Below are positions 61,984-62,688 of a stretch of 64,000 nucleotides of DNA, piece after piece. The notes beneath the pieces are model-generated. The model made no database searches. It worked only from the letters and a program-made list of their open reading frames with translations, and had not been told where the DNA came from. The DNA is from Saprospiraceae bacterium. GTDB taxonomy: Bacteria > Bacteroidota > Bacteroidia > Chitinophagales > Saprospiraceae. The stretch is taken from assembly GCA_017985675.1 (NCBI GenBank), contig JAGNXB010000003.1, positions 1-64,000 on the forward strand, in the 5' to 3' direction. Position numbers and translations under genes: made by a program. How positions within the stretch are numbered: the stretch's first letter is position 1; every line of letters starts with the position of its first letter.

Positions 61984-62688
61984 TTAATTATCTATACGCT
62001 CTCTTGCAATCCTATCAGGTTCTTCACTTAGATAATACGCCAAGCACATTTCCAATGTTTTTTTTCCAAGCACTCCTTCGTTCTATGCATTTTCTATTTC
62101 CTCCATCGTAGATCTTGGTGAAACCATGTATTGTGCATTATGAATACTTTCTAAATTTATTTTCCAGACAACTTTTCCAGACAACGAATCCAATAATTTA
62201 TAAATATTCACACCTAAACAAAAATCTTTGTAAAAAATACTTTCAGTGATCATCTCCTAATCAAAATATGGATTCGCATAGCTTTTTGTTAAGCAGTCTA
62301 CCAAGAAATTTATTTTAAAGGGCATCTCTATTAACCTCCGAAATAGACCAAAACTAAAGAAAACCAAGCGAGACAAGGCATTTTGATCGCATGCCGCCTT
62401 AGCTTCAGCGATGGCACAAGGAGCTTAGCCATAGCTAAGTGATTGAAAAATAATCCCACTAATAGCGGGACTTAGGTTTTATTTAGTAAAAATCCTGCAA
62501 GGATTTGTTTGGTCATTGAGTGGGGTTGATAGAGGTGCCCTAAAGTCTTTTACGAATATCTTGCTTTCCGTCGGAGTCGATCCGGGATAATCTTGTGCAC
62601 CCAGGAATGAAGTGTTAGCTATTATTAGAATTAAACAGAATTAATTAGACAAAATCAGTACATTCTTCCCTTTATAATTTGTATTCAT
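61984..62688 (-). pseudogene. decayed exported-protein gene, split by a miniature element
   Basis: Read on the minus strand from ATG 62688, one frame runs to TAA at 61984-61986 once the 221-bp element (62320-62540) and one of its flanking TAAA copies are removed. The joined sequence is 480 bases, exactly 160 codons. It contains three internal stops (codon 16 TAA; TAG at 62257-62259; TAG at 62083-62085), so it is dead. A signal-peptide-like stretch (LILIIANTSFLGAQ) follows the first stop. Downstream pieces read KINFLVDCLTKSYANPYF, GKVVWKINLESIHNAQYMV and EGVLGKKTLEMCLAYYL. Family not recognised. Confidence 0.75.
62320..62540. mobile_element. 221-bp MITE-like element with 33-bp inverted ends and TAAA duplication
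   Basis: The ends 62320-62352 and 62508-62540 are inverted repeats (24 of 33 positions identical without gaps), starting GGGCA and sharing CTCTAT and GACCAAA. TAAA flanks both sides (62316-62319 and 62541-62544), consistent with a 4-bp target duplication. No transposase fits inside. Smaller hairpins lie within (CTTAGC/GCTAAG at 62424-62439; AAATCC/GGATTT at 62490-62506). It interrupts the pseudogene, whose frame is restored by precise removal. Parent IS family unknown. Confidence 0.8.

Follow-up and report, generated by a model that had tools for sequence, protein, structure and literature searches.

The 221-bp element near the end of the DNA analysed here, a 64-kb stretch (the window) from an uncultured Saprospiraceae bacterium whose own genome (G000) comprises 3.65 Mb in 137 contigs, is a miniature inverted-repeat transposable element (MITE), that is, a transposase-less transposon of IS5 type, a class that is already well known. 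Its ends are very probably of a kind recognised by an IS5_4-type DDE transposase, which would have inserted the element in trans into a small gene, with duplication of the target TAAA. The coordinates of the element, its flanks and the two parts of the interrupted gene are collected in Table 1.

Table 1. Features of the MITE and its host gene in the window, and shared-flank relics in the same genome
Feature	Position	Strand	Remarks
Element	62320..62540	.	221 bp, non-autonomous, IS5-family MITE; host frame not open through the element
Left terminal inverted repeat	62320..62352	+	GGGCATCTCTATTAACC core; same core in genus elements
Right terminal inverted repeat	62508..62540	-	GGGCACCTCTATCAACC core; core also in genus elements
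TAAA, left copy of 4-bp target duplication	62316..62319	.	Register is the 4 bp of the family
TAAA, right copy of 4-bp target duplication	62541..62544	.	Register is the 4 bp of the family
Host gene, 5' part	62541..62688	-	Up to ...VKDF; contains one stop; its low end carries the TAAA that was duplicated
Host gene, 3' part	61984..62319	-	KINF... to stop; two internal stops
Shared-flank relic L254	G000:C120:69641
Shared-flank relic L255	C131:19048
Shared-flank relic L256	C87:21837
Shared-flank relics L257, L258

The two ends of the element, GGGCATCTCTATTAACCTCCGAAATAGACCAAA and GGGCACCTCTATCAACCCCACTCAATGACCAAA, match at 24 of 33 positions without a gap, and the core of the left end is close to the termini of full insertion sequence (IS) copies. 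An earlier note on this DNA had described these 33-bp imperfect inverted repeats with TAAA on both sides, and the sequence bears it out, as does a scan of all spans of 100-400 bp in the window with a threshold of at least 24/33 ungapped end matches: two spans pass, and identical 4-bp flanks are found at this element alone. The 221 bp contain neither a transposase gene nor an open frame running through them. A sequence-only family model, for which 22 genus elements were used, covers the element end to end with 144 bits.

With this model, the own genome yielded 8 matches and the congeneric genomes G003, G001, G002 and G004 yielded 28, 9, 9 and 2, respectively; there were none in the three other genera used as negatives. 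The ends, of which the earlier note had proposed to look for other copies, recur as paired termini in both genome and genus. The own genome carries a second 221-bp copy (G000:C110:75838-76058), 94% identical to that of the window, and diverged copies on C62, C118 and C120. Five of its 8 matches fall into two groups with common flanks (C120:69641 with C131 and C87; C118 with C120:54094) and are therefore relics within larger dispersed or duplicated repeats, not independent insertions. Further copies occupy unrelated flanks, with 4-bp duplications, which disposes of the possibility, raised in the same note, that the 221 bp belong to some longer conserved stretch. In G003 the end motif is matched 34 times, versus no matches for a reversed control pattern; in exact form, it is present in 8 of 298 genomes of the family Saprospiraceae. 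Three lone end matches in the own genome (C110:10157, C62:6204 and C93:7644) are unpaired and appear to be due to chance. When a plasmid collection was searched with the 6-kb region, only conserved housekeeping genes were recovered and the element was absent; in viral contigs the end motif was matched once, unpaired and within other sequence.

Two observations were made beside these copies. Near the second full copy, an open frame (L007:25-390, on C110 of the own genome) repeats the 7-residue unit FYFLLFT, which implies a 21-bp tandem array. At L208 (G313:C380) and L218 (G002:C177), the MITE and the displayed flanking bases are identical across two genera, for which contamination of G313 (estimated at 5%) is a likelier explanation than transfer.

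A 4-bp target duplication is a property of the family. Among 54 element spans drawn from the genus of the window and other related genomes, the left and right flanks are identical over 4 bp in 20, versus 2.6 expected from shuffled pairings (500 shuffles, maximum 9), a rate that is lowered by some nested or false pairings in the set (L107, L099). At other lengths agreement is at or near chance, with 3 spans at 3 bp and none at 5 bp.

The copies of the genus also vary internally, gaining or losing short perfect palindromes at fixed sites (L021, L025, L030, L035, L042 and L071; alignment A2): CCTGCCTGCCGGCAGGCAGG, at two adjacent positions, TCCCGAGTACTCGGGA and ATCCGCCAGCTGGCGGAT. TCCCGAGTACTCGGGA was found at unrelated sites as well, in G001, G002, G003 and G313. 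One may speculate, although we consider it doubtful, that the family has been amplified genus-wide without a resident helper while evolving through palindrome gain and loss, and that smaller hairpin elements move within and between MITEs, the latter idea drawing on the occurrence of TCCCGAGTACTCGGGA elsewhere in these genomes, at unrelated sites. Two 49-bp elements in G001 (L046:1469-1517 and L061:1501-1549) consist of little beyond two ends placed back to back and seem to represent the family in its minimal form. Related elements in G188 (L099, L107 and L119) contain internal units, of about 41 and about 148 bp, in tandem, which repeat the end-like motif GGCTGCCTCTCTTCACTCCC.

A search with PF05598 among the genomes that have these ends recovered an insertion sequence of 1,268 bp (L122:162-1429) from G013, a metagenome-assembled genome of an uncultured member of the Saprospiraceae (record CAKZVJ010000156.1). 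Its termini, GGGCACCTCTATTAACTAT and GGGCACCTCTAAAAACCTC, have the same end core as the MITE and enclose a transposase of 354 residues, in which Pfam recognises DDE_Tnp_1 and DUF772. This protein scores 271 bits with the NCBIfam model NF033581 (transpos_IS5_4; cut-off 140), which places it in the IS5 family, and it stays below the respective cut-offs of IS1182 and the other IS5 models. The copy at C156 is without a perfect duplication, and at least two further copies are cut off at contig ends. Each end of this IS has about 15 of its first 18 bases in common with the MITE and no match was seen in the interior of the MITE, so we regard it as a relative of the helper and not as the parent. The other PF05598 loci recovered were set aside as being without paired ends of MITE type, as were the DDE_Tnp_1 transposases of G002, G004 and G439.

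We then considered sixty-two related IS loci, which come from named genomes across many phyla. An exact 4-bp duplication is present at 20 of the 35 loci where both ends were found (these include several copies within single genomes), versus 2.0 in shuffles (maximum 6), with no duplications of 5-7 bp at these 35 loci, most of which end in GGGCAC[CT]TC[TG]A. As the motif at the ends, the length of the duplication and the class of transposase all agree, the type of the mobiliser, which the earlier note had left unknown, can be given as an IS5-family transposase, and that of the IS5_4 class is the probable mover. On these comparisons the MITE would itself be classed as IS5-family-derived, its ends matching those of a full IS whose transposase falls in the IS5 family. 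A full IS with the same termini thus exists in another Saprospiraceae genome but was not encountered closer to the window: queries with IS transposase, PF05598 and PF01609 found no transposase with these ends in G000-G004, which are draft assemblies where IS copies can be missing. IS copies are often located at contig breaks in such assemblies. Since no helper was found in the genome or the genus, it may have been lost from the own genome, left unassembled, or never resident there.

The insertion very probably proceeded as follows. A DDE transposase of the IS5 family (NCBIfam type IS5_4), supplied in trans, would recognise the ends of the MITE and make staggered cuts four bases apart at the target, where the element would be inserted; gap repair would then leave TAAA on each side of it. 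The target was the small host gene, split between the codons of the conserved F49 and K50. Movement was presumably by cut-and-paste, which is a general property of DDE insertion sequences and for this reason is adopted here for the MITE.

Removal of the element and one TAAA joins the two halves of the host gene into a minus-strand frame (62688-61984) of 480 bp, encoding 159 residues and a stop, with three internal stops. Both the joining and the decay of the gene had been noticed earlier and hold in the joined frame. The restored frame had also been taken as independent support for an insertion, and here the restoration stands but its weight was overstated: element and duplication together make 225 bp, or 75 codons, so the reading frame is common to both halves whether or not the element is there (its presence adds two more stops), and such continuity alone is a coincidence expected one time in three. 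The stronger support comes, for this reason, from homologues. Searching with the joined protein (X placed at the stops), as had been suggested, we found two that are uninterrupted: one in the congener G003 (C11:3317-3730; 36% identity), which spans residues 17-156 of the joined protein, and one in G069 (C12:642-998; 34% identity). When the three sequences are aligned, no gap occurs at the junction, which lies between the invariant residues F49 and K50. The genes neighbouring the G003 homologue differ from those at the window locus, so that it is an uninterrupted homologue and not an empty allele of this locus; no such empty allele was found. The host protein matches no Pfam family, and the match of the homologue to RnlA_toxin_N (E 0.04) is under the cut-off and not significant. 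From the hydrophobic stretch at its start, the product is likely to be a putative secreted or lipoprotein-like protein.

The order of events in the host gene may have been the reverse of a simple inactivation, with the element landing as a neutral passenger in a gene that was already dead. This is compatible with insertion by an IS5-type transposase, and we give it close to an even chance. The three stops in the gene's own sequence would fit it, and the other full copy, on C110, likewise lies outside the listed open frames; the perfect duplication and the 94% identity of this second copy, on the other hand, fit a moderately recent insertion, although neither of them dates the stops.

Two other readings would alter the nature or the source of the element itself. 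It folds far more strongly than shuffled sequence (z -8.05 as DNA and -7.42 as RNA), as might a hairpin retained for a function as terminator, RNA or regulatory element and not as a selfish relic; strong folding, however, comes with any long inverted repeat by construction, Rfam gives nothing at threshold (the best match, an Aggregatibacter sRNA, has 26 bits versus a gathering score of 81), and among the copies the interior varies freely but ends and target duplications persist, so that we hold such a role to be very improbable. That a transposase from another family serves the ends, the terminal motif being merely common, appears very improbable too: no IS5 transposase was found in the genus and other DDE_Tnp_1 transposases are present in G002 and G004, but no matching end pair lies near these genes, whereas matching ends and 4-bp duplications surround IS5_4-type transposases in many phyla. 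Transposition by an IS5_4-type enzyme acting in trans is thus the reading that we retain.

Compared with IS5-family insertion sequences of the NF033581 type, the element of the window shares the ends (GGGCAC[CT]TCTA...) and the 4-bp target duplication, but those are about 1.2-1.3 kb long with a transposase and it is 221 bp long without one. Within the Bacteroidota, IS5-type MITEs have been described in Porphyromonas gingivalis (MITEPgRS/MITE464 and BrickBuilt; PMC4596501); they are likewise transposase-less, with ends matching IS5-family insertion sequences, but these ends are GAGAC..., matching ISPg1 and ISPg9, in place of GGGCA..., and the duplication length of BrickBuilt varies (PMC4596501), whereas that of the window family is 4 bp. 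The MITE of Cardinium, also Bacteroidota, is a transposase-less, IS-derived element of about 240 bp (PMC9769881); it derives from ISCca4, of the IS982 family, and its parent is intact in the same genome, whereas the element of the window is of IS5 class and no parent was found for it (PMC9769881 for Cardinium). In open-access text, we found no bacterial transposon paper containing the end motif and no prior description of MITEs in Saprospiraceae.

The insertion in the window is ordinary in kind, one of the many ways in which small bacterial genes break. With it, however, the Saprospiraceae gain a MITE family for which the termini, the 4-bp duplication and the class of transposase can all be stated, and such elements can be numerous without a detectable helper transposase.
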